Assembly: GCF_020382885.2 (NCBI RefSeq)
Contig: NC_058496.1
Location: forward strand, 7,928,501 to 7,992,500
Direction of reading: 5' to 3'
DNA: 64,000 nucleotides
DNA from: Scatophagus argus
Lineage: Eukaryota > Chordata > Actinopteri > Scatophagidae
The notes below the pieces were generated by a model. That model was given only the letters and a program-made list of their open reading frames with translations, was not told the DNA's origin and searched no databases. Of this stretch, positions 394 to 51,717 are shown in pieces (position 1 is the first letter of the stretch; every line of letters begins with the position of its first letter). Position numbers and translations under genes: made by a program.

Positions 394-3300
394 ATCCGTA
401 CAGAGTTGGAACAACATATGAACTGTAACCTGAAAGAGTACAAAGAGTTCATTGACAACGAGATGCTGCTGATCCTGGGCCAGATGGACAAAGCCACTCT
501 CATCTTTGACCACGTCTACCTGGTGGGACAGCTGATATCTTTTGTTTCCTGTTGAAAAAACTGAGATTAAATTGTTCTCTTTTCATCAGAAAGGAAGACG
601 GCTTCCCTGTGAAATTATTGTTTTTGGATGAACAAAAAGCTTACAATGATTTAAAAATACACTGAGTCTAAACAGTGTTTCTCCTCATTTGTTTGTAGGG
701 ATCTGAATGGAATGCATCTAATTTGGAGGAGCTGCAAGGGACCGGGTGATTTATTTTACATTATAGAGGAACTGAGATAGCCAAATCAAAAACATTTTCA
801 TTATGATTTTAGCAAGAAGGAATGTTGTTGATGAGTTAACATTATCTTTCCTCCCCAGGGTGGGCTACATCCTTAATGTTACCAGGGAAATAGACAACTT
901 CTTCCCAGGCACATTCAGTTATCACAACATACGTGTCTACGATGAAGATGCCACTGACCTGCTGGCTCACTGGAATGACACATACAACTTCATTGTTAAA
1001 GCGAAGTGAGTCCTGACTGGAGCAGAAAACATGTTGTTCATGTTTGGATCAGCTGATGAAGATAATTCATCATCACAGATGACTCGCATGTCAAATCTCA
1101 TTTCACACATTTACTCAGTATTTGGAGGATCAGATTATTGCAGTTGATGTGTTTCATGTATAACAAGCTCTAACTTTATTTATTATATATATACATAAAA
1201 TATAGAATTAAGCAAGTACAAGTACAAGTATGTAGTGAAGCAGTATTTACTTAAGTAGTGCAGCAAATACAGTGCAATTGCAGAACCAGTTTCTCAGTCT
1301 GTTGCCTCAGAGTGTCTGATGGTCACAGGCAGAAACGACCTCCTGTGGTGTCTGTGGAGCATCGTAGTAGAACTCCTGTGCCTGACCAGGACGTTGTGGA
1401 GTGAGTGGGGGACATTGTCCACTATAGTGTGTAACTTAGACAGCACCCTCCTAGCTGCAAATGGCTTTGCTCACACCATGTGAAGTTGTCCACCGTAGCC
1501 CTGTACTCAGTCTCGTCACCCTTGTTGATACATCCAGCTATAGCCAATTCATCAGCTAACTTCTGAAGATGGCAAGAGTCTTCTTGGTAGTTGACGTCCG
1601 TGGTGTAGAGGGTGAAGAGGAGGGGAGAAAGGACAGTCTCCTGTGGGGCTCTAGTGTTGCTAACCACTCTGTCTGACACACCGTGTTACAGGTGCTCATA
1701 CTGTGGTTTTCCAGCCAGGTAGTCAACAATGGACAGATGGTGTTAAATGCACTGGAAAAGTCAAAAAACACCACCCTCACAGTGCTCGCTGGCTTGTCCA
1801 GGTATAGACACGATTTATCAAGTGGATGATGACATGCTCAACTAACAGTCGGGGCTGGTAGGCAAACTGGAGGGGGACCAGAAGTGGCCTAACCATAGGC
1901 CTTAGCTGCTCCAGAAAAAGTCTTTCCAGGGTCTTCATGATGTGGGAGTTCAGTGTCCATGAAGCCACGAGGACATGGCGTCTTTGCCACAGAAACAAGG
2001 CAGCTGATGTCTAATGCATACTCGTATTTCAACTGTTTTTATTAAGCATGAAAGTTCATTCTTGACCTTTAGAGGTAGTGGTTTTACAAGGAACTCTGTG
2101 AGGTCTGCTTACCAGGCTTTCCTGAAGCCCTTACCCCCTACCCCCAAAACCACTTACCATGAGCCTGAAGCTCCTCACTCAAGTCACTTCATAACAACTG
2201 AGTTATCTGCATGGCAACTGAACAACTGAGATGCAGTTGATGCAGATTTTTCTTTTTCTTTTTTTTCAGAATTTTTTTGTTTCAAACTATGTATTAGTGA
2301 TTACGTTTTAAATTCTCCTCCACAGAAAGAACCACTCCAAATGTCTAGTCCACTGCAAGATGGGTGTCAGTCGGTCTGCCTCCACTGTCATTGCTTACGC
2401 CATGAAAGAGTATGGCTGGTCGCTAGAGAAGGCGTACAACTTTGTCAAGCAAAAGAGAAGCATCACACGACCAAACCCAAGTTTCATGAGACAACTGGCC
2501 GAGTACGAGGGCATCCTGGATGCTAGGTACAATCCTGTGTATATATGTACAGTGTTGTTTTCTACATGTCTTTTCCCGGCTGACCTGTTGTCTTGACTTT
2601 TGCACACTGTATTTTTATATTTCCAGTAAACAGCGTCACAACAAGCTGTGGCATCCAGACGCAGACTGTGAGATGGCTGAGGGGCAGCAGGGACTTCAGT
2701 GTTGTGGAGGAGAGGAGGGAGGCCACCTGACTCCAGAGCCAGGGATGTCTCCCTGCTGTGAGGAGGTGCTGTCTGATAAGGGGGCAGCATGTCCCTCCCC
2801 ATGCAGGACTGTTTCACTGGAGATTGACCCTGCCTACAACAACTACTACTTCCGTCGGCTGTCTGACTCAGCGCTGGACAGTGAACCATCGACACCTGTG
2901 CGCGGTCCTCCTCTTCTAGGCATGGAAAAAGTCTTTATAGAAATTGAGGATGTGGAGAGGGATGCTCTGTTGGACGATGAGGCCTTTGATAGTCGTGAAG
3001 GACTGCCTCTCTCCCACTTTGGGGCTTCAGCAGCGGGAACTGCTGCCCAGACAAGCTCTCGGGGCCCTGAGCCCCTGGAGGAGCTTCGTCTAAGGCTGGA
3101 GTTCAGCACAGTGGAGGAGGAGGATGAGGAGGAGGTGCAGAAGGAGGAGGCAGAGATGGAGGTTCTAATGCAACCAGATGATGGAGGGGGTGGGGAAGCA
3201 GGTGGAGGAGAAGAAACAGAAAGTGTAGATACAGAGGGTAATGGGATGGACCTAGCTACCCTGAATGAAAACTCCAACAATAACAACCATTTGAGCACTC

Positions 3301-4524
3301 CACATAACCTTAATGTAAGTGTGAGTCATGTGGTTTAGCTGCCTGTTATTAATTTCATGAATCCACTTTAAAAAATAACCATATTCCGTCTTATATTTTT
3401 TTTTCTTTCCTCTTTTTATTTAGGTAAAGGCTTCCTCCTTCGCTCCTCCAGCTGATGCTTCTGCTTTGTCTTCTTGGGATTCAAAGTCCAAGCAGACAGA
3501 AGAATTTCCACCTCTGGTCTCCAAGCTTTGCCTTAACCCTAGTCCTCCTGAAGTCCCAAATGCTTCATTTCCATTGTCCCATACCTCTTCTGAAGGCTTC
3601 GCATCTTCAGTGGTACTGCTGCGCCGCTGTGGCTCTTTCTGTGATTGTGCCAACTGTGCTGCCTCCACACCCACAGCTCCACTCGACGGTGATGAGCAGC
3701 CAGTACCACTGTATTTACCAGAGCCAAAGGATGATGGTGATCTATTGGAAGTGAACACGGAGGGTCAGAAAAGTGAATCTGCAGCTTCCTCAGATGCCCT
3801 CCCTGAGCTGATGAGAATGGATCTGGGGGAAGAGAATTCTGTCGTGACTTGTTACATTGGCCAACAACAGGACACGCTTTTGCAGCTGCAGAGGTCCGGG
3901 CTGGTCCGCCGGCGTGCAGAGAGACTAGAGAGACTTTCAGGTTTATCCAAGGAGAGACTGCACTCTCCTTTGCACGCATGCCAAAGGTCCAAAAAGAGCC
4001 TCTCTCATGCTGAGGATGAAGAGGACTTTTCTGGCTTCTCCGGAGACTTCCCTAAATCTTCTACACCATGCCAAGTGCGGTTAGAGCCACTGGTGGTGCC
4101 ACTGACCAATGAAGCCTTGTTGGGGGTGGTGGGGTCTGGATTGCTCACACCCACTTCCTCACCTCATGGGTCAACCCTGACACGCAGCTCCAGCAGTGAC
4201 AGTCTGCGCAGCGTGAGAGGGAAACCTGGCCTTGTGCGTCAGAGGGCACAGGAGATCGAGACCCGCATGCGTCTGGCAGGCCTAACCGTGCCTTCCAAGC
4301 TGAAGAGGTCCAACTCGCTGGCCAAGTTGGGCAGCCTCAACTTTTCCTCGGAGGACCTGTGTTCGGCTTGCTCTTCGGATGCAGGAACACTGCTGCTCCT
4401 CTCTCTGTCCCCAGAGCCAAACTCTGGCCTGGAGTGGGACTCCCCCACCACCTCTGCTCTGCCCCCACCCTGCAAGGACCTGTACACTCCAGAGAGAGCA
4501 CTGTCAGGTGAGCCCAGAAGCTGA
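394..4524 (+). CDS. ssh1: Slingshot protein phosphatase 1, 3' part (last six exons)
   Basis: Slingshot phosphatases dephosphorylate and reactivate cofilin/ADF and so drive actin filament turnover. Exons read by splice sites and phase: 394-522, 699-745, 859-1005, 2326-2526, 2627-3314, 3424-4524 (2313 nt, 770 residues plus stop). The 5' exons lie left of the window. The first exon carries the DEK-C-like helical segment (IRTELEQHMN...ILGQMDKA). Exons 2-4 form the dual-specificity phosphatase domain with the signature HCKMGVSRSAS; the catalytic Cys codon is 2354-2356. The long last two exons are a Ser/Glu-rich tail ending in the family's conserved block (SVRGKPGLV, QEIETRMRLAGL, LKRSNSLAKLG), which contains RxxS-type serines like the 14-3-3 sites of mammalian SSH1. 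I choose ssh1 over ssh2/ssh3 from the tail and from the coro1c neighbour. The stop lies 17 nt beyond a donor-like CAG|GTGAGC at 4507, so an alternative 3' end is possible. Confidence 0.93.
1290..2010 (-). mobile_element. Decayed LINE (non-LTR) reverse transcriptase fragment, antisense in ssh1 intron
   Basis: Minus-strand frames contain recognisable reverse transcriptase pieces in order: a segment with LERLFLEQLRP and PLQFAYQPR, then VVFFDFSSAFNTI, then SDRVVSNTRAPQETVLSPLLF and CHLQKLADELAIAGC. The pieces sit in different frames, and a stretch is missing between FNTI and the SDRVV block. It is therefore a frame-shifted, internally deleted and non-functional copy. The fish L2/Rex-like class fits best, but the family assignment is from memory. 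The 3' coding end runs to about 1290. It lies in the intron between ssh1 exons 859-1005 and 2326-2526. Confidence 0.8.
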
Positions 4525-7434: not shown

Positions 7435-9366
7435 GTAAGTGACAGCCTCAGTGTGTGATAAGGGATCAATATTATGTGCATGTCATTGGAAGAGTAGGGA
7501 GCCGTAGTGATCCAAGCCTGTGCCCAGCTTGTTTGGTTGTATCTGTCGGGGCAGATTAAATAAAAAACAACAAACGATAAGTTGCCTATTTTCCAGCGAC
7601 TTGTGAGAGGTTCCTGGTTCGTTGTTTTGAATTCCTGTATGTCTGAATATGTTGAGGCAGCAGAGCACATGGTGATCAAGTGATCAGCACTGGGCTTTCA
7701 GGGAGGATGAGACAGGATAATGGAGCAGTTGTTAACAGGGGCAGACTGCCTTAGGGGAAGGGGCTCCCCACACTGATTGATGCAGTAGGTGGAGGATAAT
7801 CAATGAATGCAAATTCCACTGAGTTCTACTATTTAACCTGAAGAGTTCACATGATCTGACAGAGGAGAAACTACGACTTTGTAACTTCTTTTTTACTGAG
7901 GTCCTCCCATATTTCTGCTCTCTTTCGCAATGTCAGCCACAAAACAACACATTTGTATCTCCTCACAAAGCTATGCCACCATTGTAGGGTGATAACATTA
8001 GCTCCGTTAGCCATGTGTCTGGCCTGTGTGCAGGCCTGTCAGATGATAAGACAACAGTAGTCATATGTTGTCACACAGACGAGGGATGAGGCCACAGACA
8101 GGAAACAGACTCATGGTCCAGGTCATTGTTCATTGTGCCTCACCATTTTCTCTGCTTACTGCTGCAGTTTGGTGGATAAAAATTCATTAAACAATCAGGT
8201 GATCTCATGGAGAAGTTTGTCTGTGCAACATGATAATGCAGGTTTTGCCTCATGTTCTGCTTTCTTGTTAGCAAGAACCGCTATTATTATGCCTTCTCCT
8301 ATGGGTATTACTAATACTAACATACTTTCTGACTACTAATCATCAGCAGCACAATAACCACCAACATCATGATAAGACCATGCAATGCAGGAAAACATTC
8401 ATGAGAGAATGTTAATTAAATACAAAACATCCAAAGCAAGATTAACATGGTACAGGGCATCTGTTCAATTTTCATATTATTCATTGGATTAAACACTGAG
8501 ATTAAGTTTTTTAAATATCCTCCTCTTATATGCAACATGTGGGAACACAAAAGACTGCACTGACTGGTTCCTAATCAATTAACTGGATCACATGAAACCA
8601 AATCAGGAAAGAAATTTGAAAAAAGTATGAGGAAAACAAGTTGAATTTCATCAGACTTTGTGAAGATTTCACACTAACAGAGAAGGATTAATCGGTTAGT
8701 CAGACTCAGTGTTCAAGTTGTTCTGCTGTGATGCTGATTATGCCAATAACACTCATCACAGGTTATAATTAACAACACAGTTATTCTAAGGATGAGGCTT
8801 TAAATCTTAAATTCAAATCATCCCTTCAATTTGTGTGAATGAGTGAAAATAGAACATAACATACAGTGTAAGAAGAAAATAATGCAGTACTGCAGTGTCA
8901 CTGAAGAGTTTAACACAAAGGACTAAAAATCTTGTGTGTATAATTTGACTTGAAACTGTGGACCTGGCAGATGCATAAATAACCCAACAGAGGGTATATT
9001 ATAGCAGTTAAAGTCATAAGATACTCCAATTCATGACTCCCATGAAAATAGCTCCTGTGTGACGATGAGTTGTTTGCTACATGCTACATGGTCTCATCCC
9101 AAGACTGAAACCATTTCTCATCTCTAGACAGTGATCCCAGGTGTCTGCTCCTCTTCTGTTTCAGCAGCCTCTAGATTTCAGTTTTATTTAAACTGGAAAT
9201 ATGAATGGAGACACTCAGAATAACCAATGCTGTGGTTGAGCACAGATCAAGCGTGGTCAGCAGGCAAAAGAAACTGCTTCTGGGCTGACATTCCTTCCTA
9301 ACACGTGGCATGATTTGGGAGGATCAGTGTTGTGTTGTGAGGTTAACACCATGTCTTTCTCGACAG
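7435..9366 (+). other. coro1c: Putative intron between the upstream exon and the large coding exon
   Basis: Bounded by GTAAGT at 7435 and a pyrimidine-rich acceptor ending AG at 9365-9366. The interior is AT-rich with no frame that looks coding on either strand. Confidence 0.4.
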
Positions 9367-9372
9367 ACCAGT

Positions 9373-11563
9373 ATGGGACAGAACCAGGATAAACTGGAGG
9401 AGGGGGAACAGGCCCTCAGTGAAGGATCAGAGGAGACAAAGCCAAGCCCCGATACTGGAGGCGCAGGCAGTCATACAGGTGATGTCATGGAGGGAGGAAA
9501 CTCCTGTGAGGAGGAAGCTGGTAACACCGGGGAACATTCAAGGGAGCCAGACGCTCAGGATCTGGATGGGATCCCCAGCCAGGAGCCAACAACACCTTCT
9601 AACGAGAAGCATATAAATTTGTGTCCGAGTCCTTTTGCTGTAAGGGAGGTGAGACAGGGAGGGGCTGCAGGAAAGGAGGGAGGAGGAGAAGGAGGCAGGA
9701 CCGCTCCGTTGGTTCCACAGGAGACACACGAGAACCGAAAGAGTGGTGCGAAGGCTGAAGAAAGAGCCGGCATATACAAGCTGTACAATCAAATCAAGAG
9801 AGAGGAGAAGACTGCTGAGGAGGGGCTTCACAAATCTTCAAGTATCAAGATGGAGAGAACCGTCCCACATGAGGAGATCCAAGATGGAAACCTCTTAGCT
9901 GGAGTTGCCCTTGAAAGGTATGGCCATGCTTTTTCTTCAGACAATGCAAAATCACTTGAAAACACAGTAGAGGACTCTGTGATGATGAAGATGAGCAGAT
10001 ATGGAGCTTGTGCAGAAAGTGAGTTTTTACCGTCTGTTCGTCAAGATCAGAATGATCTTGTCGTCATTGCTGATGTTGTGGATGGAGATATTCAACTCTG
10101 TGCAGAAACAGTGGGCCGCTTGAGTGAGAGGATGGGACCACCTACAGCTCAACCCCAACATCCTTTGAAAAACAGTGTGCAGAAAGAGTCTCTATCAGAC
10201 ATGAGTGACACCATTCACTGCAGACCTCCAGAAGAGAGAACAGAGAATAATACCAATGAGGAAACGTGTGAGCTGAAGCCAGTTTCGAAAGCCTACTCTT
10301 CAACAAAACCAAAGGTCGCTGACACCGATGATCAAACGGAGTCCGCGGGATCTTATCTACAAATGGACACAGCTGAAACAACCATAAATCAAAAGATAGA
10401 CTCATCAAATCCAGCCTCGCCCACTGAACCCAGTTCTATTTTGGAGAAGCTACTGCAGAGAAACAGAAAGCAGACAACCCCTGCTCTCTCAGATATAGAA
10501 GAAGTTGACATAAATGAAAAGGATACCTTGGATGTTACTGAAAAGAGGATCCTTGACAGTGCAGCAAGAGAGCCATCCACTGATACAATCAATCAGTCAG
10601 ATGTAAATACACCATTATCAGTACATGACATTAAGGGGTTGAAAGAGAAACTACCAAAAGAAAGCCTCGTAGCCAAAGATCATCACATCAAGGGCCCCGA
10701 CTTGAAACAGACAGATATGTCAGATGTACATTGTTTTCAGTCTGGAATAATTGGAAATACTACGAGTGAGACCTCACTCACAGTCTCACATTATCCCAGA
10801 GCTGATTGTCAGAGTTCAAAGAAGCCGGATATAGGCTCATGTAAAAACCAGTCCCCGGATAACTTACAATCAGCTGTTTCACATGAAAGAATGTCATGTG
10901 AAGTGAGTGGTGTGATCACTGAGGAATCTACACCTTCCTCATTGCCTGATACAAAGCCTCCACCCACAAAAAGTGATGGGCAAATAGCAGCCCCATGTCA
11001 TTTGCTTAGTGCTGAGAGGACAGATACTGCAAGACCACCTCAAGAAATGAAGAATGACAGCAAAAGCACAGCTGATTCAAAGTTATCTGGCTCTGCATGC
11101 TCAGACGCTCAATCTTTGAGAAGGAAGAAGGTGAAGGACTCCACTGAGAACACTACTGCACCACCCGTGGATGCTGGCTCTGTTTTGGTTGTAGCCGGAC
11201 CAGCTATATCAGAGGAGAGTCACCAAGTCAAGGCAGGGGTGAAGCAGGATCTTCACGTGACACTTCACACAGAAAATATTATGCCAGACCAAAGTGATAG
11301 AAATCTTGGCAGAGAGAGCGATGACAGTGTCTCAGAGAGAGAGAAATCTCAAAGCATTCCCAAATCTAGGCCTGTTTCAGAACTCATAAAGGAGACCATT
11401 CAACTGCATGAAAAGCTGCAGCACCAGGACCGACCAAAACCAGCTGAAGTTAAGTCTGATGAGCAGGCCCAGTCTGTAAAGGTGGCACAGATGAAGGCTG
11501 CTTTTGACTCAGCTCAGAAATCTCCAGACAAGGCAATTGAGAGGAAGCCATCAGTGAGAAAAG
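9373..11563 (+). CDS. coro1c: Giant alternative N-terminal coding exon of coronin 1C
   Basis: This is one uninterrupted frame. An ATG is possible at 9310, but 9373 (MGQNQDKLEEGEQ) is preferred: it has A at -3 and G at +4 and lies just after a splice acceptor. The frame runs 730 codons to the donor AAAAG|GTAAGG (GT 11564-11565), which leaves one base, G. The coro1c ATG exon begins with AT before its ATG, so joining gives G+AT = Asp and then the coronin Met in frame: VRK-D-MRRVV. The extension is rich in Glu, Ser, Lys and Asp, has no membrane segment or recognised domain, and looks disordered, except for a helical stretch near the end (SELIKETIQLHEKL, then SVKVAQMKAAFDSAQKSP). The predicted long protein is about 1204 residues. 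If the donor is not used, the frame stops at 11721 inside the intron (782 residues from 9373). I do not recognise homologues of the extension outside coronin 1C. Confidence 0.72.
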
Positions 11564-11859
11564 GTAAGGGTAAAATCTGGATTACTGATTATATAATAAT
11601 AGTTGAAACTGTGGATGGTGCAGAAAACACTGGGCATAACAGGATATCAGGTAAATTACTTAGTGAGTCATTTGGTTTCCAAAGACAGTTTCCCAATGAA
11701 GTCTGCTTTCCTGGTCCATGAAAATTTGGGTTGCCAAATTCACCACAAACACTTGCATCAACCCTCATCCACAAGACTGAAAGAGGACGAAGAAAAAATA
11801 GATTGGTGATGGAATACAGCTGTTCTCAAACGTCTGCATCACTCTGGATTTGGGAAATA

Positions 11860-11873
11860 CCGCCATCTTGTGG
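11860..11873 (-). promoter_or_regulatory. CTCF-like motif
   Basis: The reverse strand reads CCACAAGATGGCGG, matching the vertebrate CTCF core CCASYAGRKGGCRS at 13 of 14 positions. It lies between the long-isoform coding exon and the ordinary coro1c promoter. Sequence match only. Confidence 0.35.
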
Positions 11874-11879
11874 TGCTGT

Positions 11880-12329
11880 AACATACTTGTGGTACATGAT
11901 GTTCTTGAAACATATTCTTAAATCATAATATTCTGTTGTTTCACTACCTATCATAAACACTGACATTGACATTATAATCCTTCTGCATAAAAAAGTGGTT
12001 GAAAGAATTACTTTCTCACACAGAACCATTCAGAAAAATTCACTTGTGTTTATGTCCTTACATTTATGGTAGGATCAGTTATTTTACCCACACTTTTTAA
12101 CACACTTTACCCATACTTTCCTAAATTATGTCATATAATGACAATTAGTAGTGTAATTAATAAATGTATTGAAGAAAGGAAACAGGTATATCACAATAAT
12201 AAAAGCCACATTAAAAACCACATTAGATTTAAATGCCAGGGGGCCGCCATGAACACACGATTGATGGTTATTTTTTTCTAACTGGGAACCTAAAGGAAGG
12301 AAAAATTAGTTCTTTTCACTGGTATCCAA
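11880..12329. other. Non-coding stretch upstream of the ordinary coro1c promoter
   Basis: AT-rich sequence with no coding frame or recognised repeat. For the long transcript it is intron. Confidence 0.5.
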
Positions 12330-12460
12330 AACGTCACTATGATTGGTTGTTAGAGCTGTCCATCAAAAGCAACTGGTCCACACAGGGCGCGCCAAGCCCA
12401 GCTAAGGGGCGGGACTAGCGCCAGAGTCGGGAAAGAGCACACAGAGAAACTGGTGTCAGC
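12330..12460 (+). promoter_or_regulatory. coro1c: Ordinary (GC-box) promoter of coro1c
   Basis: A CRE-like half site (ACGTCA, 12331-12336), an inverted CCAAT box (ATTGG, 12342-12346) and a GC box (GGGGCGGG, 12406-12413) in a locally CpG-rich patch precede a non-coding exon with a good donor at 12561. There is no TATA box, which suits a broadly expressed gene. Confidence 0.55.
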
Positions 12461-12560
12461 ACAGCAGCGGCTCCAGCAGAGGGAGAAATCAATTGGGATA
12501 CGCGTCGGGCTGTGTTATATCATTCGGCTTTCGGGAATACCTTCATTTTCCTCTCAGAAG
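12461..12560 (+). other. coro1c: Non-coding first exon of ordinary coro1c
   Basis: Ends at the donor CTCAGAAG|GTAGGT (GT at 12561-12562). Spliced to 23508 it puts the sequence AAGAT directly before the coronin ATG, giving a G at -3. The left border is a guess within tens of bases. Confidence 0.55.
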
Positions 12561-13195
12561 GTAGGTTACAGGTTACGCGAATTTGTTAGTTACGTTCTTT
12601 TCTCCTCTTAAATTGGTCTCAATGGTCTTCGTTTGTCCACCTCAGCCACCCAGACAGGAAAGTGCATGCGCTAGCTAAAATGAATCGGGATAGTCTGTAG
12701 AATGTGAACTGTCTTTTTTTTTTTTTAGCTAGCACTAGCCTTCAGCGGCGGTTAACTGACAATGCCAAAAAGTTTCTAACCGATAACCTGGGAAATTGCT
12801 GTTTCTCAAGCAAGGTTTTTGCTCCTTCTGCTGTTGGGTGGATAATTCACTACATGAAATGTTCAGTTGAACGTTATCGAGTGGGGTGGGGTAGCTAGCG
12901 ATAGTCCGGCAGGAAAACTTATTTCCGAAACGATAGATCCACATACACGGAGGTGCAGGAAGCATAACCGCGCCCTGGCCCTTGGCATCCCGATTGTTAA
13001 TAAAGACTATTCAGACTGAACAATAGGGTGAACACATGAAAGATATCGAAGAATTAACTCTATCATTTACATGGACGTTTTTGGTGAAAATGTACTGCTT
13101 CATTTCAATCCAATATCCGCAACATTCATCCAGATGCCAGGTTCAGATTTGACCCACTAACATACTGGTATGAGAGATATATGGAAAGGGGTCAT

Positions 13196-13262
13196 AGTAA
13201 TATTTATAGTCGCTAGCATGGAAGCAGAGACTGTTTCCATGCTAGCGACTATAAATATTACT
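13196..13262. repeat. Perfect 28-bp inverted repeat (hairpin) with 11-nt loop
   Basis: Left arm 13196-13223, right arm 13235-13262, loop 13224-13234. All 28 arm positions are complementary, and the loop can add a GU pair and three more pairs (CAG/CTG). The centre of each arm contains GCTAGC. It lies in intron 1 of coro1c. Confidence 0.95.
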
Positions 13263-14879
13263 CAAATGCATAATCACAGTGTTCCTCCACCAGCTCCGTT
13301 TGGCCATAACACGTGGAGAATCGTTTGTATGAAATTATCTGTGCAGATGACGACCTCAACCTGCTCTAGTTAATTGGTAATAGGCAGTAAGAGCAAACAC
13401 TGAAATGTCGTGTTGCTGTTGTTGACAGCTGTTTTTAATCTTCACTTTTGTTACAGCAAAACCAGGGTTTGGTTTAATGACGTTCCGGTCAAATTAAGAT
13501 GGGTATTTTATTTATTAGTAAGTGTTTCTTGTGTTCAAAGACACTTTATTGTCTCATTAGTCTCATCTACTGAAATATTGTATTGTAAAGTTTCCATAAC
13601 TGGACCGCGTATGTCGTAATTATATCGAGTTTGCACATCAATGAAGAAGGATTATTAAATTAATAGTAATATAAAACACACAAACACCAAATGTGACTCA
13701 AGGAAGGAATTGTATACCTTTTGAAGGTTCTAGGGCGCCTCTCCTCTCATTTGGTGGTGTTGACCCAAGTAGTCCTTTATGTGACTCCTCCTTCTGCGAG
13801 CCACCACCGGCCCATTGGCTTTCTCATGACAGTAAGGCAGTTTGATTTGTAATAACCGTGCTTAGTGTGCCAAAGGTGCAGCATGATTTGCATATTTGGC
13901 CCCTGTTTTGAACTAGGTTACTCAGCTTCAGTGTGTAATCAGCTTTAGAGTTGTGGGAGTTTCCCTTGCTCAGACCCTCTGTGGGATGCAGAGCAGGTGA
14001 AGGCTGTCAGAGTGACCCCGGGGTCAACAGTCAGCAGTACTACAGCTGTGTTTGGGCTTGTTAACCGTTCCAGACGCATCAACCTCTGCTGGTTGTGCTG
14101 CAGTGCAAGATCTTCAGAAGTGTGTAGCCTGCCTTCCTATGGCTGAGCTGAGAGAGGAAGTGGGTCAGGAAGCAGAGGGAAACTAAGCATGAGATGTGAG
14201 GGAGTGTTGGTTCCTATCAACTGCAGCAAAATGTGTTGGTGTGGGCTGTGGTGAAGTCTCGAGTGCACATTTTTCGATTGGTTTCAGGAAGATCGTTTAA
14301 GTTTATATCTCCTATTCAACATATCTATTACATTTATTTCATCTGTGTTGATTGAGGTATGGCTAAGTACAACCTTTCTGTGCTGTCCATCTCAAGTTAC
14401 TGTTTATAATTGGGCTGAAATTATAAAGAAGTAGCAGCTCATGCTTTGTTTTGTGAACTGAGGAATGTGTATATTGGATATTGGATAGAAAGTAGCTTAG
14501 TAGTTGTTTGATATATTGCCTGGTGCAGTTAGTTCTCTTATCAGTCTGCTGGAATAATCATATCAAGTATAAATATTTATAAATATATTTGGTCAACGGT
14601 GTGGCCTTTGCACCTAAGTTGCACTCAAATATTGCATTCTTTTAACGTGTCTGACATACCTCAGTTTGTGTCCAGTCCTGTCTGTGCAAGATGTAATCTC
14701 AGCCCACGCTTACTGCCAGAAACTGTCTTGATGACATGCCACAGCTTGAAAAGTCAACAGATTTAAATTTGCAGCCAAGCCTAGACTTGATGTGCTAGAT
14801 ATTAATTATTTATTATTTATTTACTTTTTTTTCAGACAAGATATCCACTACTGGTCTTTGTTTTGTTGTTGTGGTTTTT

Positions 14880-14901
14880 CTTGTTCTTTTAAAAGAACAA
14901 G
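14880..14901. repeat. 22-bp perfect palindrome
   Basis: CTTGTTCTTTT followed directly by its reverse complement. It contains TGTTCT and AGAACA steroid-receptor half-sites in everted order. Function unknown. Confidence 0.9.
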
Positions 14902-17900
14902 TGGAGGGAATATCTCATTAACCAACTGCTTAGTATATTAGTGTGTGTGTTTGTTTGGACCAGCCCGGTGATGAAGAGGATCACATGCCTAAATCTGTAC
15001 CACTAATTGCTTACATAGTAGAAAACAAGCACACAACCCATTGACAGTGGATGTTCTTTGTTGAATAAGCCACAATTAAGTGTATTAATTGCATATATAT
15101 CTAAAAAGTTATTGATATCAATTTGTGTTCTGTATGTGTTTTACATAATAAAAGGTAAACTGTATGATTATATGACTAGCAATGCTTGCGCCTTAGTAAT
15201 TCCAGCAGATGTACACAGACTTATACTATTTCTTCACTGGTCTCTCCCACCACAGCTGACAACATCTGTTGAAATAGAGTAGTGGCTTGTGCATTGCTCA
15301 CTGGGGCAGGGAAAAGAAGCTGATCAGGAAGAGGAAGGGACACACTGTGTAGGAGTTGACTTTAAAAAAAAAAAAAATTGATAGGTCGGGTTTTTGTTTT
15401 TGTCATTTTATTATGTTGTCTACTGTGTTTACACGTGAGAACTTTGCCGTTGGTTATATTTTCAGTTTGTGCTGCTGTAGATGGCCAAGTAACACACAAA
15501 CACTCATAAAAACTTGAGCTTTTCCTGTTGTGAGTAATTTTACTGGATTTTAAAGTGGTCTCTTTTAAATCTTGACTTTAAGTAGGATAAGAAGTTTAGG
15601 AGTTCAAGTCTCACACTACAGAAATTTATAGACAGTTGGAATGGAAGTTTGTGCTGGAGTACAGTTTAAGGCATAGTCAGCATTGCACTAGACGTAGGCA
15701 TTTTCGGACACTATAGATTAAGACACATGTCTTAATCTAAAGAATTTGTTGTTCTGTTTTGGAATGAAGAAGTTGGCAAAATCTAATCACTTTATTTCAC
15801 TTGAGGTTGAGGATTTTGATTGTAGCTGGTAATTTTCTTTTTGTCTATGTGTCACACAGTACTGAGTTGAACCTAGAGCCACATTGCTCATTTGTCTGCA
15901 AATCTCATTTCCTCTCCTAAGTATAAAAGAATACAATAGCATTCCTAAAAACACTGGTGTGTAATGTATTGTGTTCCAGTACTATTTAAATTGAGCAGCG
16001 CAAAGACCACATGGCTACTTGGGGTTGGGGAGAGGTGAAAAAACAGCACCTTATCTCATTGTTGCCAAAAGCCCTGGAATGTAGCTGGAATCTGATTACA
16101 ATGGTGGTCCGTGGCCTTGGTTACAGGAAGGGGATTTAGGTGGCGTCTCATGCGGTCTTGGTGACAAAAGGCAAAAGGCAGGCAGTGCATTGGGAGCACT
16201 GAGGCGACATCACTGGTGTGTGTAGTGGTGGTGATGTTTGGCAGGGGTAGCAAAGTGTGGGAAAAGTCTGTGACTGGTAATTGCTGTTAAGATATAAAAA
16301 TTTCAGGCAAAAAAATGCCATTACTGCCGTTACACTTACTAATGTGTATACATTCAGTGCATGCTTTATCCCACGTATATTTGAGGGCTGTTGTTGTTGG
16401 AGAGATGTACTTAATATAAATCCATTGGATATGCACAAAACTGCGCCTGAAAGAGACACACAACATCACAAAGTTGTGATGTCTGCTTTATATTCCATCA
16501 GCAGTGGCTTACTGTCACATTCCCCACCCCTGAAGTGCAGAGGAGAGGACTGGACTGTATTTTTAATTGATAAAATTATCTGCCGCCATTGTAGAAATCT
16601 AAAATATCAAATTTTAATATCAGGAATGAACGACTTCAGAAGGCTTCAGAAGTTTTCAGTACTGCCTTCTAATACTGTGCAGATATCAGTACAATTTTAG
16701 CTCATATTATTTTTGTGTGTAAAATCACTGCAGTGGGCATGTGTTGTCAGGCACACAGAGCACATTGGAGACAGTGTGGTGGCTGTCAGGCACACACTCA
16801 GCCTTCTCCAGTCACCTCACCTGTTACATTTTTACCATCTATGCATATGGATTGTGTAAGTCTGGAAATAAAGCCAGTGACAGCTCTGGCACAGTCATTT
16901 CACTCCATATCATCCCCATGAGTCCTAATCAGAACGCAGGTCATAAATATAAATATTGTGGTGATGCCTGATGCACGTGCATGTTGGTTATTTGTGGCAT
17001 CTTTCATTTTCATGGTTTGTGCACACATGCACTTTAAGTTTGGACCCTACACACTAGGGATGGACATAAATATGGAAGTCCGTATTTGTCCAAAGTATAG
17101 AGACCTCGATTTTTAAAATATTTTAAATATAAATGGATAAATGCTCATCCCTGCCATGCATGGTTTTATAAACGAGACCCCTGGACTCCCAGTGTGAAAT
17201 GGCCACTTTGTAAGGAAGTTGGCAATAACAACAATGATGAAACGTACCAACAAACAAAGGAATTGCAAAACTAAACACGTAGCAGATAAGATCCTTTGTG
17301 AAACATGGTTGAGTCTTTGTTTTATTTGCTGATTGCATGTATCAGCAGAGGGTTTTATGGATTCCAGTGATTTCGGCTTGAGACTTTAGGTGATTTTTAA
17401 GATAAGTGGCTCAAGTTGAGGGAACTGTTGAGTTGTGGTGAACTTGACAAATGAACTACAGATGAACACATGAAAGCACTTCTGCATTACAGTCAAAATA
17501 TACATATTCTTATTGCACATGCTGCAGCTGCTATGTTTGTTTACTTAACTATTGTTGAAGTCTGTTGTGTGGTGATTATTGTTCAATTAGTCAAACAGTT
17601 ATGAAAACTGCTACAATGTAAAAAAAAAACAAAAAACTTTGCTTTTTAAAATGTCTAAGTTCTTTTATTTTATTTTATTTTTTTTAAAAAAGCAACTTTG
17701 CTTGGATGTGTTGTTGTAGTAGTGGGTTGTCAAGCTTAACCTATTGTGAGAAACAGGTCTGGTTTCTGTCAGCATTCCAGTCAAAACCCCCTCAGGGTTA
17801 CAACTTCAGGATGAGCATAATTCTGCTCTAATTCTGCTACCCCTCCCTCTCCCACATCAGCTCATCCTGATTTGTGGCTGGGATTTTCATGTTATGTCAC

Positions 17901-20900
17901 ATTTCACTCACAAAGCAAACACACTGCAAAACACCAAGCATCATGGACGATTTTGCACCCCAGCAACAAAAATATAAAGGCTGTCTATGCAGTTTGAATA
18001 AGCCATCTTTGGGATTCACATAGCTGTAATAGGCTGTGAGTTTTAATCCTGGTTAGGCAGGTTATCTGCTGTTGGAAGAATTGGGGTGGTCTCATGTTTT
18101 ATTTGGAATGTGTAAGCGTAAATGGATGTGGCAGGGATGGGCAGCATTAAATGTCTCTTGTCACTGAAGATGTTCAATAATTTTATAAGCTTATGCACAT
18201 GCTCCAAACTCTATGCAAAGTCACGTCATCACCAGATGATGAATGTCACAGTGACCTCGATAACACGAAGGGACAATTTCAGATGTTCACGTTGGTCACC
18301 TGCAAGTACTCCATTGATCTTTAGTAGCGAGTGACTGAGATGCATCTTGGATTGAGTGACAAATAAAAATTCCTCATTCTTAACAACAAATGTTAGAGGA
18401 GTGACATTCTGGCACCCAGACCAAACATGAGCTTTCTTATTTAAAGAAAAATAGAGGTAGCTCTCTGTAGCTGTTTTGTAGTCTTATGTCAGAGCAAAAC
18501 AATTTCCTCTTGGTTTAATGGTAGGCAGCAGTCTGTACTGCAACTGTGAGGTAGAAATTAGAGGGAAATCTTCCAGCGCCTAACACGGCAAGCTTGACGG
18601 TGAACATGAAAAGCCTAAATTCTTCCATTATCACAAGTGGTGTAATGGAACATAGTTGATTCGTGATCCATGCGCAGAGAGGTGGCTACATTAGAGCCAA
18701 AGTAGCACATTTTAAAAATACTCCAAGCCTTTTTTCTTTTCTTCTGATGCATGAGTTTTGTGATCTGTTGCATTCCTCATTATCACCTTCCTTGTCAACC
18801 ACTTAATTTGTGCTTGTAGTCTTAAAGTAGGTTTGGAATAACCAGTGAAAGTGTGGAGCTCAGTTTGTTATGGGACCCACATTTCCTCAGCAGTACTGTC
18901 AGATGTAAATGGGGTTGAGGAATACAGAGAACGATGCTAAAAACTGTGTCATACTCGTCCATTTTCTGTTGGTTGTTTCCTCAGGCTTTGGGGTCCTCCT
19001 TCTGTCTCTCCACATCAGGGTCAGCTCGGCTGGCTCAGGAGGCAATAAGGTACATAGGTCTGCTTTCATCTGATGTGCCCAACAGATACTTGAGGCCTTT
19101 TTGCTTGAATTAGGGCTGGATCAGTGAGCTGTAAATCTCAGAAGATTATCACTGAGTAGCATGATATTCCCCCAAGGTGTGTCTCTGTCTCTCTCTGATG
19201 TATTTCTGAGGCTGTCAGACTGGTGCCTCAGCACAGACCCTGCTGACGTTGTTACATGCCAGACGTGATCCTTACGATGTTTATTGTTTGGTGAAAGGAG
19301 ATGGGTCATAAACATTGGATATTAAATCAGTAATTTTCAGTATTGACTCTTTAATTTAACTCATGTAGTTATATAGAGGTTTTCCTTTTTTGTCATTCTA
19401 ACAGATTTCACTTTATCGTTTAGTTTTTAATTTATCCTGTGTGTTCCAGTGGATGAGGAAAATCAGTGGTGTTCTATATAAATATTTCCTTTGTGTTGAC
19501 AATGACTGTGTTAGTATTAGTTCCTGGTCTCTATGTGGTAGCCATAGAAATCTAACAGGAAGTTGGCTGTTTGGATAAGGCTTGCTAGTTTTGAGCAGAA
19601 TAACCCTACCCCTCTGGTTCCTGCTCTTTAAGTCCTACCTGACTCTGAGAATTCTTCTAAGTATATTTGGGTTAGTATAATGGTACCATCAAATTGATAT
19701 TGAATGTGAATAAGTAAAGGTGCAGTAAGTACTGTCCCCTGGTCTCTTTGTAGGCTTACTTTTTTCAGCCTGGACTCATCAGGTGCAGCAGAGGGATAAT
19801 CGTGTTCTTACATAAGAGTCCTATTGGATAAAGGAGTTTTTGGTTTGGTATTTGCTGCTAGCAGTTTTAGGATCTTTGACTGTGAAGGAGGTGAGATTTG
19901 TTTGACGCTTCAGTGGATATTCTCGGTGAGGCACAAGTCCTGTCATGTTGTAGCTCTGAGGTACAAGGTGATTAAGTCCTGAGTGTTAAACATGACTCCA
20001 GGTTTCTTTTGAGCCATTATCAGCATTTCAGCTTGACTCTGATTTGAGTCTTAGTCGAGGACTTGACCATTATAGTACTATGTGCAGATGTGGGAATGGC
20101 AATTAAATCTAACCACAGTAAATGTTTAGTGTCTAAGAAATGGTGATAACTTCCTGAAAAGGAAGCAACGAGGCTTAGTCACTGAGGCCTAGTGTGGCAC
20201 AGTGAGCTGCAACAACCCCACCTAGTCTGCTCTGATGTCTAACGTGTACACTGATATAGCTCAGCCCTCTTCTCCATAAAGATTTTATATCCAGTGTCGC
20301 TCAGTTGTTGCCAGAGTGGTGGGTTTGTAAAAAACTAATCAAATATTGAACATTTCCTGCTGTTTGTAGAGCATAAGGATGGTGAGTGGGGATCTTTGTG
20401 CAGGCCCAGACTGACCTCAAGAATGCAGTGATTGTTTTGTCTAGGCTAGTCACACTATTGTGGTGATAAAACAACACATCTTATAAAGCTCTCCTGAATA
20501 AAATAATGTACTATTCTGCTGCAAATTAACAGAGCCAAGAGCAGCAAGATAGCTTCTCTGCTCATTCGGCATTAGTAATGGGAAAGGCTCAATGGCATTT
20601 AAGTAGGTTAGGGATGTCATCATCATGAAACTGGACCAGACCTGATAGATTCCCCTTTTGCCACCATGGAAAGAAAGAAGTGGTTGCTGTTTAGAAAATG
20701 ATTCATTCCCCCTAAATAGTCCAAAATCAGTTTACATTTCAGGTGAGAAATAGGCCATGCAGTCATGCTTCATTTTGTATCTGCAACGCCTAACAGAGCT
20801 TGACAATAATTTTTTTTTCCCATCAAAGAGCACATGTGTTCCTAAATGAAAAAAATTTAGGAAAAACTTGCTTGAAAATGTTCAAGCAAGAGAACAAGAG

Positions 20901-22248
20901 AAGGATTTCGAAGGTGTCATTTTGGCCTCTGTTAAATTATGATGAGAATATTTTAACAGTTTTTTGATATTTCATAGACAAAATGATTAATCATGAGAAT
21001 AAACAGCAGATTAATGAATGAGAAATCTAATCATTAGTTGCAGCCCTAGTAGAAAAATCCGGTGCATTCGGTAGCACTGGTGTGGTCACAAGTTTATTAA
21101 CTAGAGGGAAAACTAGAAGCGATCATAATACATTAAGTGTCTTTTTTCTGGCCAATAAATTGCTGATGAACTGGTGATGACCTCCTAAATCAGTTATTAC
21201 TTTGCTCTGTTTTCTGCCATTACCTCCCTGTTAGTAAAGAGCACTCACTCCAGCCAGAAGAGCATATGGTTCCATTAGACAACCAGTGGTGATTAGCTCT
21301 AATTGACCAGTTGAAATGGCCAAAAATTAGTTTGTCAAATAATTGACAATGATTCAGTTTAAGGTATGTACCACACTCAGCTGTTTCCTAATCCTATGAC
21401 ATGTTTTTTCAGAGTTATACATTTGGCAGGAGAATCAATAGGTTGTTCAAATAACTGGAGGCTTTTCAGCATATTGTCTGTAGAAGAATGTAAAGGAGGG
21501 AATGTCTGTCTGAAAGCAGACACACCAACATGTCTAACTTGTTTAATGCATATGGTACGTGCAAGTTCCTCATTCAGGATTGCAGGGCTTTCTACAGGCT
21601 GTCCATGCCTGACAGTCAGCACTGACGCAACCAGGCTGTAGAAAGCTGTCCTCTGTCTGTCAATAGAACTGTTACATAAAATGAGGGCTTTAAAAACTAT
21701 TGTGTATGTATTGTAAATATTCATTATAGCATCTGTAAGTAAAAAAGTCAATAAACAGAGTAAATCCCTACCAGTTTCCAATAACAGAACTGTTTCTTCC
21801 CTTCAAATTGAATTTAGTGTCTTTTTAGCTATAATTTATCTACCAGGATTTCTACAGACTAGTTATAATTGGATGACAGCTCTTTGTCTGAGTCAGTCCT
21901 TCCAGGACTAATCAAATTCACTTTCCTAGACAAATTCACTTCTGAGCCAGACATATTAAGAGGAAGATTTTGAAAATCTTGTGTAACTCAAGTGAAAACT
22001 GGAAAGTCTCAGTTTAAGGAAGATTAGCACTTAAATGTCACTAAATGTTTAAACTAATTACAGCAAATTTGTCTTTTAGCCCACTGTCAGTGTTTAGAGA
22101 TACCAAAAATAAACAGTTGTAATGACTGACGTGTTTTACAGATGGGCTGTTAGGACACTCCCACATCCCTGCAGGAAGAACTTCCTGCTCGTGTTATGCT
22201 CCTTGTTCTGCCAGAAACATGCCATACAAGCGTTTCTTGCTCACTCTC

Positions 22249-22252
<4 letters not shown>

Positions 22253-22309
<57 letters not shown>
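22253..22309. repeat. (CA)n microsatellite
   Basis: 57 bp of uninterrupted CA dinucleotides in coro1c intron 1. It opens spurious Thr/His and Val/Cys frames on both strands. Confidence 0.98.
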
Positions 22310-22311
<2 letters not shown>

Positions 22312-23365
22312 GGAAAGCCACCTCCAAAACATATCCCACATCCTGTGCTGTGATTTTATCATGTTGGTGATTCAGGCTGGGAAACTGTTACCATGTGCCT
22401 TGTCCAAAAAAAAAAGGACTACTTTAGAGCTTTTGTCTTTCTTTAGGTTGTAGGTTACATTGGACCTTGTTTCTGGTCGTTTATGTCAAATGGGCCAGCT
22501 TTCCATTATCTTTGGAAGTGTTCTGTTATTGTAAGCACAGCACTTGGACTTGTAGCTTTTGAATGGGCATGTTTTCCAAAGCTCTCTTGTCTGCCAGCGG
22601 ATTCTTTTCTTGGTGAAGATTTTAGCTGAACCAGCTTCTAAGTCTGTTTTCATTTGGATTGGGTATGTCCTATTTTCCATTGGATGTGGCTCTTTCTAAC
22701 TGTGCCACACAAAAAGCGTGTTAGTATTTCAGATGTTTAATATTTGGCACAGCTGAACATGAAAAGGAAAAAACAAGGCTGACCAAAGAGTTTGAAGTCC
22801 TGTGAACTGTCACCAAGAATGTTTCTGTTGCTGTGTGTTTTTGAAATCTGAAAAGTTTAGACCCCTTTTAAATATTGCGGTTTCTGCAGTTTTGAAATTT
22901 AGTAATGTGTAAATTTGTATCACTTTTCTAGCCAATCAGTACCCTGTTGGAGGTGCTCCCTGATCACAGGTGTGAGGAGAGCCCACATGGCAGAGTGTCG
23001 ATGGGCACTGACTGAGTTAGGTTCCTGAAACAAAATGTAGAATCTTTGTCAGAGTAGTAGGACTGTCCTTTCAATAAAGAAGCTGTGTCATTCGGTGCAC
23101 GATCATTCCCCTTCCACAATAGGATGTTAAATTCATATTTCCAAGCTTCAGTATGTGTTGGTAATGGTCTTCTTCTGAAACGGTCAGCACTGTGATACTC
23201 TGATATTCCAGGGAGACTCTTGGAGTAGGGGGTAGTCATGGTTTGTTATAAAATGTTGAGTAAAAAGTCTAACACATCTCCCAAGACAATGTGTCGCTGA
23301 ATAATATCCTCACGTATGATCTTCGTTCCTTAAAAGAACTGTGCTGCAGTTTGTGGATGCGGTGA

Positions 23366-38685
<15,320 letters not shown>

Positions 38686-45345: not shown

Positions 45346-45836
45346 TGTACAATAAATATTTAGCCAAACACAGGAGGTGAGGACCTCAGTTTAGAACAAA
45401 GCGGTAAAACAAGGGGAAAGTCACTGCACCAGGCAGCTGGTTGCTAAGAAACAGTTTGTAACTGCTTATAAGACTTTGCTGTTTGTGTGCAGATAAAAAA
45501 ATACAAACAGAAATTGTTAATTATTGAGCTTCAGAGGTACTGGTAGGTGGATTTTGTTACCTTTGAACAAAGCACAGATGGTTGTTTCCCATAGTTTTTA
45601 GTCTTCGGCTAAGCTAAACCAACCACCTCATAGCCTCATTTTTAACACAAGGACAAGATGGGTATTGATCCTGTCTTGGCAAGAAAATGAATGTTTCTCA
45701 CAATACGTCAAACTATCCCTTCAACGGGTATCAAGCCACTGAGTTAGTGGATCACTACAAGATTAAATGTGAACATATTTCCTCTTTTGATCCTAAATTC
45801 ACCATAGCCGTTGTTATTGTTGCAGGTCGAGAGAAG

Positions 45837-46589
45837 ATGAAGTCCCGTTTGGTTTGTCTCGTCACCTGTGTGACCCTGCTCTCACTGTGGTGTAATGTCT
45901 GTCACGCCGCTCCGATGTTCTACAACATGTCCATGGACAGCAGTGGTGATGGAGCAGAACTGGAGCTCCTTTTCCCCGTCTCTTTCTCCACCCGAGCACC
46001 TGTTCACCTCACCACCGCTACGGGAGCACCCACCCTCACCAACACCATTACCACCACCATGATCCGTCTGAAGGATTTCGTCCTGACCCGAGTAGTGGAT
46101 TTCCTGCAGGAGAATTTGCTCATTATTATTGTTGTGACGTCTCTTCTAATCGTCATGGTCTTCATCATCTGCTGTGCCTCTGCCATGAGTCATAAGCGCA
46201 AGCTGGAGGCCTACAAACCGCCTCCTAATAATCCACCCAGGAAGTACATGGCTGACAAAACAGGTGGACGCAAGAATTCAAGTGAGCTCCAAGACAGGCC
46301 GTACGCTGTCGACCACGTCAAGAGGGTCCAGACTCAGAGCATGGCCTCCCCCAAGAACCTACGCATGCCCTCCAAGGCTCTGGTGGGAGAGAGGGGGAGA
46401 GACGTCAGGTCGTCTCCTCACCAGGGGGTCAGAAAGGTCAGGGAGGCAGAGGAGGTGGAAAAGCAGAGAGACGAGCCCAAGCACAAAGAGCAGCCCAAGT
46501 ACAGGGAGGAGGTGCAGCAGAGCTCCAGTCCCAGCAGCAGCTCCAGTCAGCCAGTCTGCACCTGCCATATGAAGAAGGCCCACCATTAG
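45837..46589 (+). CDS. tmem119: Transmembrane protein 119
   Basis: TMEM119 is a single-pass membrane protein linked to osteoblast differentiation and used as a microglia marker in mammals. The start at 45837 (MKSRLVCLV) lies 11 nt after a good acceptor (TTATTGTTGCAG ending at 45825). The frame is also open upstream, but that part would be intron. The product is 250 residues (human 283). Residues 1 to about 24 are a signal peptide. The short ectodomain is Thr-rich and includes NMS. The membrane segment is at about residues 93-114 (LLIIIVVTSLLIVMVFIICC), directly after VVDFLQEN, which resembles the juxtamembrane motif of mammalian TMEM119. The tail is basic with PRKYMADK, comparable to KKKYVDQ in mammals. 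The C-terminus is low-complexity Ser/Glu and ends in CTCHMKKAHH. Position next to coro1c agrees. Fish usually have two tmem119 copies; which one this is cannot be decided here. Confidence 0.88.
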   Translation: MKSRLVCLVTCVTLLSLWCNVCHAAPMFYNMSMDSSGDGAELELLFPVSFSTRAPVHLTTATGAPTLTNTITTTMIRLKDFVLTRVVDFLQENLLIIIVVTSLLIVMVFIICCASAMSHKRKLEAYKPPPNNPPRKYMADKTGGRKNSSELQDRPYAVDHVKRVQTQSMASPKNLRMPSKALVGERGRDVRSSPHQGVRKVREAEEVEKQRDEPKHKEQPKYREEVQQSSSPSSSSSQPVCTCHMKKAHH

Positions 46590-49769: not shown

Positions 49770-50304
49770 GTAAGTGCGCTGGCCTTTATCTGCCTCTTTA
49801 TTCCGGTGAGTCTTTATAAGCGTTTAACAAGTTGTGAAAAATGGCTGATAAATCATTTAGTGAGGAGAATGTTTTCTTTATAGCAAGTGAATCACTAGAA
49901 GCCTAGTCTTATTTCTTTCTAATAAGCCATCAACTCAGCAAAAGGTACTGATTATAAATGTTAATTAAGTATTACTAGATGGTTCTTACAATAATCCATC
50001 AAGCCTAAAGTTGTAAATGCTCTATTAGAAGAGCAGAAGTTTAACATTTTGTCTGAGTGACTACCTGATGAATTCAAGAGGTGAAAAGGACAAAGCGAGC
50101 GTCGTGCTGGATTTTTAACAACCTGATTCCTTAAGTATTACTATTAACCAATAAAGCTGTTAATTGCAGCGTAGATACTCTTTATAAGGAGAGCCTTTCT
50201 ATAAAGTGGTACCCGCTTTTTTAGTTAAAGGCTTCAGCATGTTTCACGATGCCACTTGCTCTGAATGTGTCTGATGTGGTCGTCTCTCCTCCTCGCAGTG
50301 AGTC

Positions 50305-51717
50305 ATGCTTTGGCGCAGATGTGTCGTCCTATTGGTTCTCTGCATCTGTCCTATAGCCTCCCTCGTAATGTCTCCCTGTCCTGCTGGCTGCTGCTGTCCT
50401 CACCCGGGATTTCTGGTTTTGTGCGAGTCCCTGGGTCTCCGGTCACTTCCTCGCTCTGTCCCTCTCAGTACTTCAGCTTTATCTGTTGCCAGAAACCAGC
50501 TCTGTAACGTGGACCACCTGCTCCGGCCATTCTCGGGCCTGCAGGAACTGAGCCTCAGCCATAATCTGCTGGCCCGCTTCCCTCGCGGACTGCCTCCCAG
50601 TCTGGAGTCCCTGCTCCTGCAAGAAAACCACATCACTTATATCACCTCTGGCGCCCTACGGCAACTGAGGAACCTCACTCGTCTGGATCTGGAGGACAAC
50701 CGCATCCGGGCTATCCAACCTGGGGCACTTCAAGGTCTGAACAAGCTCCAGGTCCTGACATTGAAGGGCAACAAGCTCACAAGCCTCCCTCTGAATCTTC
50801 CTCCATCACTGACCCATTTAGACCTCTCAGAAAACTGCATCTCTGTCCTGGACCTGCCCTCGCTGTCTGCCCTGGTCAACCTGCAGGTCCTGAAGATCAA
50901 CAGCAACTGCCTGCGTTCAGTCCCAGAGAGTGCCTTTGACAGCCTGCCACGTCTCAGATCAGTGGACCTGAACAACAACCTGTGGGTATGCGAGTGTGAC
51001 ATTTTGTATCTTTACCGCTGGCTGCTGAGTGGCAGGGTGAGGATGGCCACAGACCTGGTGTGCACCGAGCCCGTCCATCTTGCTCACCGTCTGCTTCTGA
51101 ACCTCTCTGTTGTGGGTATCTGTCCTCGTGTCCTGAAGCCAAATGACAAGACGCACCAGCTGGACCTCAACTCTACACCAGAGAGAAAGCTAAAGATGCT
51201 TACCGTGAAGCCCACACGAACAAACCTATTTGAAAATAAGAGTTATTTGGGAAACTTGTCAAAGCAACTGTTGCAAGTAACAACAGCTGGACTCCTTTCT
51301 AAAGAACCTCCCAAGACTCGTGTATTACTTGAACAGTACTCTTTAGAGACTTTCACCTATGAGGAGTGTTTGTCCCTAAACAAAACACAGCCAGTCAGCC
51401 CACCACATTTAAAAATCACTACTCTTCTCCCTGACGGGGAACAGAAATGCAGAGACAACATCACAGGTCAGTACCCTCAGATTAATGCAACCGTTGCTGA
51501 AGGAACACGATCTTTGCTCTCTACAAACAGAGACTCACCCTGGCCGACTCCCGACCCTCGACCGAATACACAACAAGACTCTGCAGTGGTCATCTCTCTG
51601 CTCACTGCCTTATGTGTATTAGTAGCTCTCCTAATGTTGGCAGTGCTACTTGTACTGAAAAAGGTGCTTCTGCACCAACAGCGGGTGGCTCCACTCGATG
51701 GAGGATCTGGTGCGTGA
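50305..51717 (+). CDS. Leucine-rich-repeat type I membrane protein (unnamed)
   Basis: 470 residues in one coding exon, starting 6 nt after a splice acceptor (AG 50297-50298). Residues 1 to about 20 form a signal peptide (VVLLVLCICPIASL). A cysteine-rich LRR N-cap follows (CPAGCCCPHPGFLVLC). About seven leucine-rich repeats cover residues 55-215 (LQELSLSHNLL, LTRLDLEDNRI, LQVLTLKGNKL, LTHLDLSENCI). An LRR C-cap with CxC and a Trp comes next (NNLWVCECDILYLYRWL ... CTEP ... GIC), then a 150-residue stalk with several N-x-S/T sites and Thr/Pro/Ser enrichment, a membrane helix at about 427-451 and a short tail with no signalling motif (KKVLLHQQRVAPLDGGSGA). The layout resembles GP1BA/GP5, TPBG and LRRC adhesion proteins, but I cannot assign an orthologue. 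Likely a cell-surface binding or adhesion protein. AATAAA lies at 51886-51891. Confidence 0.85.
   Translation: MLWRRCVVLLVLCICPIASLVMSPCPAGCCCPHPGFLVLCESLGLRSLPRSVPLSTSALSVARNQLCNVDHLLRPFSGLQELSLSHNLLARFPRGLPPSLESLLLQENHITYITSGALRQLRNLTRLDLEDNRIRAIQPGALQGLNKLQVLTLKGNKLTSLPLNLPPSLTHLDLSENCISVLDLPSLSALVNLQVLKINSNCLRSVPESAFDSLPRLRSVDLNNNLWVCECDILYLYRWLLSGRVRMATDLVCTEPVHLAHRLLLNLSVVGICPRVLKPNDKTHQLDLNSTPERKLKMLTVKPTRTNLFENKSYLGNLSKQLLQVTTAGLLSKEPPKTRVLLEQYSLETFTYEECLSLNKTQPVSPPHLKITTLLPDGEQKCRDNITGQYPQINATVAEGTRSLLSTNRDSPWPTPDPRPNTQQDSAVVISLLTALCVLVALLMLAVLLVLKKVLLHQQRVAPLDGGSGA

Follow-up and report, generated by a model that had tools for sequence, protein, structure and literature searches.

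A Putative Upstream Exon Shared by Two coro1c Duplicates of Scatophagus argus Predicts a Long Coronin 1C Isoform

Results

The coro1c Locus and Its Neighbours

The window, i.e., the whole stretch of 64 kb that was analysed (C4:7928501-7992500, in a genome of 570.7 Mb distributed over 48 contigs), carries the gene coro1c on the plus strand. Exon 2 (23508..23704) opens with AT, followed by the canonical ATG at 23510, and encodes the N-terminal DUF1899 domain with which the propeller starts (PF08953; E 7.2e-32). Exons 3 to 11 (33661..38682, plus strand), running from the WD40 propeller to the coiled coil, were mapped by tblastn with a human coronin 1C sequence, after which their junctions were read; nine segments with 51-95% identity to this query identify propeller and coiled-coil exons of the 1C type. 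The upstream neighbour is the 3′ end of a gene that we take to be ssh1-like (2322..4524, plus strand), recognized by blastn and tblastn to a block on contig C20, on which the similarity also lies upstream. Between both genes lies a putative extension exon, the coding part of which occupies 9373..11563 (plus strand) and comprises 730 codons, the first of them an ATG, and a single base of a codon that is completed by the next exon.

Other features of the window include a long single frame with leucine-rich repeats at 50302-51717 (LRR_8, 3e-27) and another with a hydrophobic segment at 45687-46586, which is presumably TMEM119-like given its position. On the minus strand, a fragment at 1556-1837 resembles, by eye, a LINE reverse transcriptase (FFDFSSAFNTI). 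An Rfam scan of the window found nothing.

Open Frame and Coding Signal

The extension lies in a stop-free frame of 810 codons (9289-11721), the longest stop-free run of the 64-kb window. Sequences simulated from a second-order Markov model of the window reached a longest run of 173 codons on average and 232 at most (30 draws of 64 kb), and random sequences with the frame's own composition did not exceed 306 codons (30 draws). The five other frames of 9373-11563 are each interrupted by 24-55 stops, which bears out the earlier note in its description of a single large open frame in stop-rich DNA. The ATG at 9373 has A at -3 and G at +4. In the DNA search of the genome the frame has one place only. 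Repeats within it, namely five inverted pairs and five families of short direct repeats with two copies each, do not explain it. The encoded protein matched nothing in NCBIfam or, in single-protein and profile searches, among PDB sequences, nor did the extension or its counterpart on C20 (see below) match Pfam.

For coding potential, we used a codon model whose training set comprised intron DNA and 1,930 codons from the neighbouring exons. In consecutive 300-base windows, the proposed frame is the best of six in seven out of seven cases for the window copy and in eight out of eight for the C20 copy, with positive scores in six and seven of them, respectively; one window of each copy scores slightly negative in frame and is still the best of six. 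For the window copy, the score is about zero ahead of the ATG, amounts to +0.19 per codon over 11173-11562 and falls to about -0.6 in the same frame past the donor. With stops excluded, the per-codon scores of both extensions (0.18 and 0.13) are higher than those of all 300 intron draws (maximum -0.12) and lower than those of 13 of 15 known segments. Part of this margin reflects composition, since shifted frames of the extensions likewise exceed the intron draws, and since known segments and introns had both served to train the model that scored them. GC3 is 0.42-0.43 in the extensions and 0.59 in the known segments. Together, the long open frame, the best-of-six codon signal and the drop of the score at the donor uphold the proposal that this is a coding exon.

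Splice Sites, Phase and Promoter Arrangement

The frame meets a 5′ splice donor, AAAAG/GTAAGG, at 11563/11564 (GTAAGG at 11564..11569, plus strand). With a score of 7.43 it is the strongest donor of 9000-23600, and only six of the 4,207 plus-strand GT sites of the window, itself included, score as high or higher. The acceptor of coro1c exon 2, CACAG/AT-ATG, lies at 23506-23507. Joining 11563 to 23508 leaves the single base of the extension to be completed by the AT ahead of the canonical ATG, giving VRK-D-MRRVV in frame, exactly as had been proposed. The joined frame reads through exon 9 as an unbroken coronin of 1,084 residues including the extension, and exons 10 and 11 bring the long isoform to an estimated length of about 1,200 residues.

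The 5′ boundary of the exon is less sharply defined. An acceptor had been placed at the AG at 9365-9366 (plus strand); the dinucleotide is present as CAG shortly before the ATG, but its pyrimidine tract turned out to be of no more than moderate strength (12 of 17). Alternatively, the exon would be the first of a transcript that has a promoter of its own: TTTAAA occurs at -186 in the window copy, and TATAAA stands 68 bases ahead of the ATG in the C20 copy. The extension exon may thus be internal or first. The 600 bases upstream contain three E-boxes in the window copy and five in the C20 copy, as raw counts.

A CpG-rich stretch at 12201..13700 (no strand assigned) separates the extension exon from exon 2. 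Nine 400-base windows have a CpG observed/expected of 0.72-0.88, compared with a median of 0.23, and in both copies the strongest CpG-rich stretch lies between these two exons (12201-13700 and C20:9554500-9556400). It possibly represents the canonical coro1c promoter with the noncoding exon 1. If so, the canonical promoter would seem to be downstream of the extension exon, which would constitute an upstream alternative start. The extension donor is the top-scoring donor of its interval in each copy. The second-best donor on C20 (9554883) falls inside the CpG-rich stretch, whereas that of the window copy (20743) falls outside. No donor scoring at least 6.5 is present within 12201-13700, so that the supposed canonical exon 1 has no strong donor in the window copy.

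A Second Copy of the Extension on Contig C20

A search of the whole genome with the extension protein (570.7 Mb; E up to 10; eight candidates scored) retrieved two places, namely itself and C20:9552732-9553082 (36% identity, E 2.4e-4), the latter inside a frame of 864 codons; as this search scores the best candidates only, weaker relatives could be missed. Exon 2 of coro1c was also searched against the genome. Eight coronin places were found, of which the second best, C20:9558788, is 91% identical and marks a coro1c duplicate. The extension match lies 5.7 kb upstream of it on the same strand. Used as a query in turn, the C20 extension (840 residues) returned itself, the window (E 4.0e-4) and a weak place on C18, which we attribute to chance (E 0.106, one stop).

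Both extensions begin with MGQ and end with AAAG/GTAAGG (on C20 with the donor at 9553084), with one base left over, and in each case the following exon 2 opens with AT-ATG; in both copies the sites and phase of the upstream exon thus fit, as far as the sequence tells, the exon with the canonical ATG. Similarity to ssh1 precedes the extension at both loci, from which we conclude that a block of ssh1, extension and coro1c was duplicated as a unit. For exon 2 of the two coro1c copies, dS is about 1.7 over 63 codons, consistent with an old duplication, presumably that of the whole teleost genome. Because a corresponding exon is present at an old coro1c duplicate of this genome, the extension exon is almost certainly real. 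For the same reason it is not a peculiarity of a single locus.

Despite the shared start, 3′ block, donor, phase and ssh1-like neighbour, the two large upstream exons differ in length and content. The 840-residue C20 extension contains PPPPVPKKPKNPF and a second NPF, the window extension has no NPF and only two isolated PxxP-type matches, and their middle parts cannot be aligned. In the C20 extension (L013:2199-2664), the proline-rich stretches PPPPVPKKPKNPF and SPPPVAKKPQNPF enclose a W/Y-containing piece; the window copy shows no counterpart of these stretches. We take PPPPVPKKPKNPF and NPF to resemble ligands of SH3 and EH domains. The canonical start also differs between the copies, being MRRVV in the window (23508-23518) and MLRRVV on C20 (9558783).

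Conservation Is Concentrated Ahead of the Propeller

The conserved 3′ block of the extension (11239..11562, plus strand) spans 108 residues with 36% identity, which rises to 48% over the last 65 residues (against C20:9552885-9553082). Used as a query against the genome, the last 68 residues found two places, i.e., the two copies (48% over 65 residues, E 2.2e-5). Comparison with 300 shuffles yields z values of 11.3 (global) and 14.3 (local) for the last 110 residues and of 2.4 and 2.2 for the first 60. When the last 110 residues or so are removed, the local z drops to -0.12 (160 of 300 shuffles as good) and the global z to 1.48 (25 of 300). Full-length alignment of both extensions gives 26% identity, which away from the ends does not exceed that of shuffles. 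Clearly conserved, judging from these alignments, are therefore only the last 65 or so residues, directly ahead of the propeller. A tblastx comparison of the intervals from ssh1 to exon 2 (18.9 kb and 16.1 kb) has the 3′ block as its only match at E < 0.03; this match extends 26 bases beyond the donor. Between the two copies, dN of the extension is 0.62 over 105 codons and dS is saturated, which makes dN/dS unusable for the extension.

Upstream regions of other coronins were inspected for an equivalent. Apart from the coro1c pair, the eight exon 2 places are C16, C23:9167150, C14, C2, C23:15024656 and C1, the first three of which were covered by this search. Within about 20 kb upstream of C16, C23:9167150 and C14, tblastn revealed no convincing equivalent of the extension; the two matches with E ≤ 1 (0.49 and 0.56) are minus-strand hits at C16. 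A third short coronin (C14, with a coro6-like exon 2) has a slingshot-like gene upstream, presumably ssh2, which shares an RHNKLW stretch with the ssh1-like frame of the window. Finding a slingshot-like gene beside this coronin as well suggests that the linkage between ssh and coronin genes predates the vertebrate duplications.

Predicted Properties of the Arm

The extension had been described as acidic and probably disordered. With a pI of 5.06 in the window, the first attribute holds, and to a lesser degree for the C20 copy (6.45). Both extensions fall on the disordered side of a charge-hydropathy plot, and AlphaFold models built with two sequences have a mean pLDDT of 36 and 33, in line with the second attribute. 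Based on both, disorder of the arm is probable and the block ahead of the propeller may form helices, with the reservation that both models are of low confidence. In the window model, four low-confidence helices appear, of which the best-scored one (668-683) and another (702-712) lie inside the conserved block; in the C20 model, helices and short strands occur elsewhere and the block is not helical. Of the helical, Lys/Gln-rich end that was put forward, a Lys/Gln-containing segment was recovered in the sequence, where it is the only strongly conserved part, and the helix was recovered in the window model, but not in the C20 model. The block has a net charge of +5 in the window copy and +7 in the C20 copy. 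N-myristoylation was considered in view of the shared MGQ start and was discarded by eye: the motif calls for a small residue at position 6 after an MG start, and MGQNQD and MGQKLE are acidic there.

Discussion

Frame, phase and duplicate copy agree on what the earlier note had anticipated, a predicted coronin 1C isoform that reaches about 1,200 residues through a 730-residue N-terminal extension. We consider it very probable that 9373-11563 is a genuine coding exon of coro1c, both old and used as an upstream alternative. Position, phase and the conserved second copy support that it belongs to this gene. From these features we infer an alternative transcript that would start upstream of the ordinary coro1c promoter and have 11563 spliced straight to 23508, the first base of exon 2. 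In its product, a short conserved linker would connect a long, fast-diverging and disordered N-terminal arm to a propeller and coiled coil that are both complete. The exon would predate the duplication of the ssh1-coro1c block, presumably the teleost genome duplication.

Three other explanations deserve weighing. A separate gene between ssh1 and coro1c, with its own stop at 11721 or spliced elsewhere, would account for the continuation of the frame 158 bases beyond the donor, for the tblastx match that overruns the donor by 26 bases and for an ordinary coro1c promoter that may lie downstream of the frame. Yet the coding score falls sharply at the donor in both copies, no match is reported beyond those 26 bases, the C20 frame enters poly-T, and no other conserved coding block precedes exon 2. 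As both copies also have a donor in phase with exon 2, we leave this explanation a small chance. Slightly greater, and still low, is the probability that the exon is real and functional on C20 and decays in the window copy, where it would be rarely or never expressed; this overlaps with the main explanation. The absence of a window counterpart of the proline-rich and NPF stretch and the unalignable middle are what such decay could produce. However, a stop-free stretch of 730 codons, a consensus donor and an overall codon signal that is still positive are hard to reconcile with it, as the dS of about 1.7 in exon 2 (63 codons) represents time enough for an idle frame to break. A chance open frame or a retroelement relic, finally, is extremely improbable: the lack of Pfam, NCBIfam and PDB matches could be expected of either, but not the length of the frame, its single place in the DNA search or the conservation of position, donor and 3′ block in the duplicate.

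Under the favoured reading, an alternative upstream coro1c exon, propeller and coiled coil would retain their actin and oligomer functions. Since both are kept, the arm would add reach and binding sites. The linker, positively charged in both copies, could dock on actin, the propeller or a partner, and the disordered arm could serve as a reach-extending tether or scaffold, a role that we regard as possible though rather doubtful. With SH3- and EH-like ligands on C20 and no NPF in the window copy, the two copies would be differently specialised scaffolds.

N-terminal isoforms 2 and 3 of human coronin 1C (CRN2) were reportedly described by Xavier et al. in 2009. Their N-terminal addition reportedly measures about 50 residues, stems from exon 1b within intron 1 and is expressed in a muscle-specific manner. 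The fish extensions, in contrast, measure 730-840 residues, and their exon seemingly lies upstream of the canonical promoter. Like the human forms, the predicted fish isoform would use an alternative upstream exon that lengthens the N-terminus and leaves the propeller untouched. A survey of the whole coronin family (PMC3203266) credits human coronin-1C with two more transcripts, in which an extra exon upstream lengthens the N-terminus, and describes these variants as apparently confined to modern primates; to treat the fish exon as their equivalent would hence need proof. The same survey gives short coronins a length of 450-650 residues, with the propeller near the N-terminus (PMC3203266). The canonical isoform from the ATG at 23510 would fit this range; the long isoform would share its propeller and coiled-coil exons but place the propeller after a disordered arm and, with 1,084 residues through exon 9 alone and about 1,200 in total, exceed it. 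No long fish coronin 1C is described in the titles and abstract openings of the literature searched, although NCBI or Ensembl gene models may already include such an isoform. The excerpts considered of a zebrafish morpholino study on Coro1C mention no long form (PMC4179493).

A more far-reaching scenario, to which we give somewhat less than an even chance, is that coronin 1C possessed a second architecture, with a giant disordered arm, a separate upstream promoter and a conserved docking module, before the teleost duplication and perhaps in the vertebrate ancestor. In that case, the short muscle isoform of mammals would represent a reduced remnant of it and no invention of primates, and the fish copies would have specialised, one of them gaining or keeping SH3/EH-type ligands.

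Coronin 1C is usually treated as a compact actin regulator with an N-terminal propeller. If it also occurs as a conserved isoform of more than double the length, some of its partners and locations in fish cells would have been overlooked, and zebrafish work may be affected too if the exon exists there. The extension also calls into question the claim, printed in PMC3203266, that N-terminal coronin-1C variants seem confined to primates, and it supplies a precise, conserved module of 65 residues.
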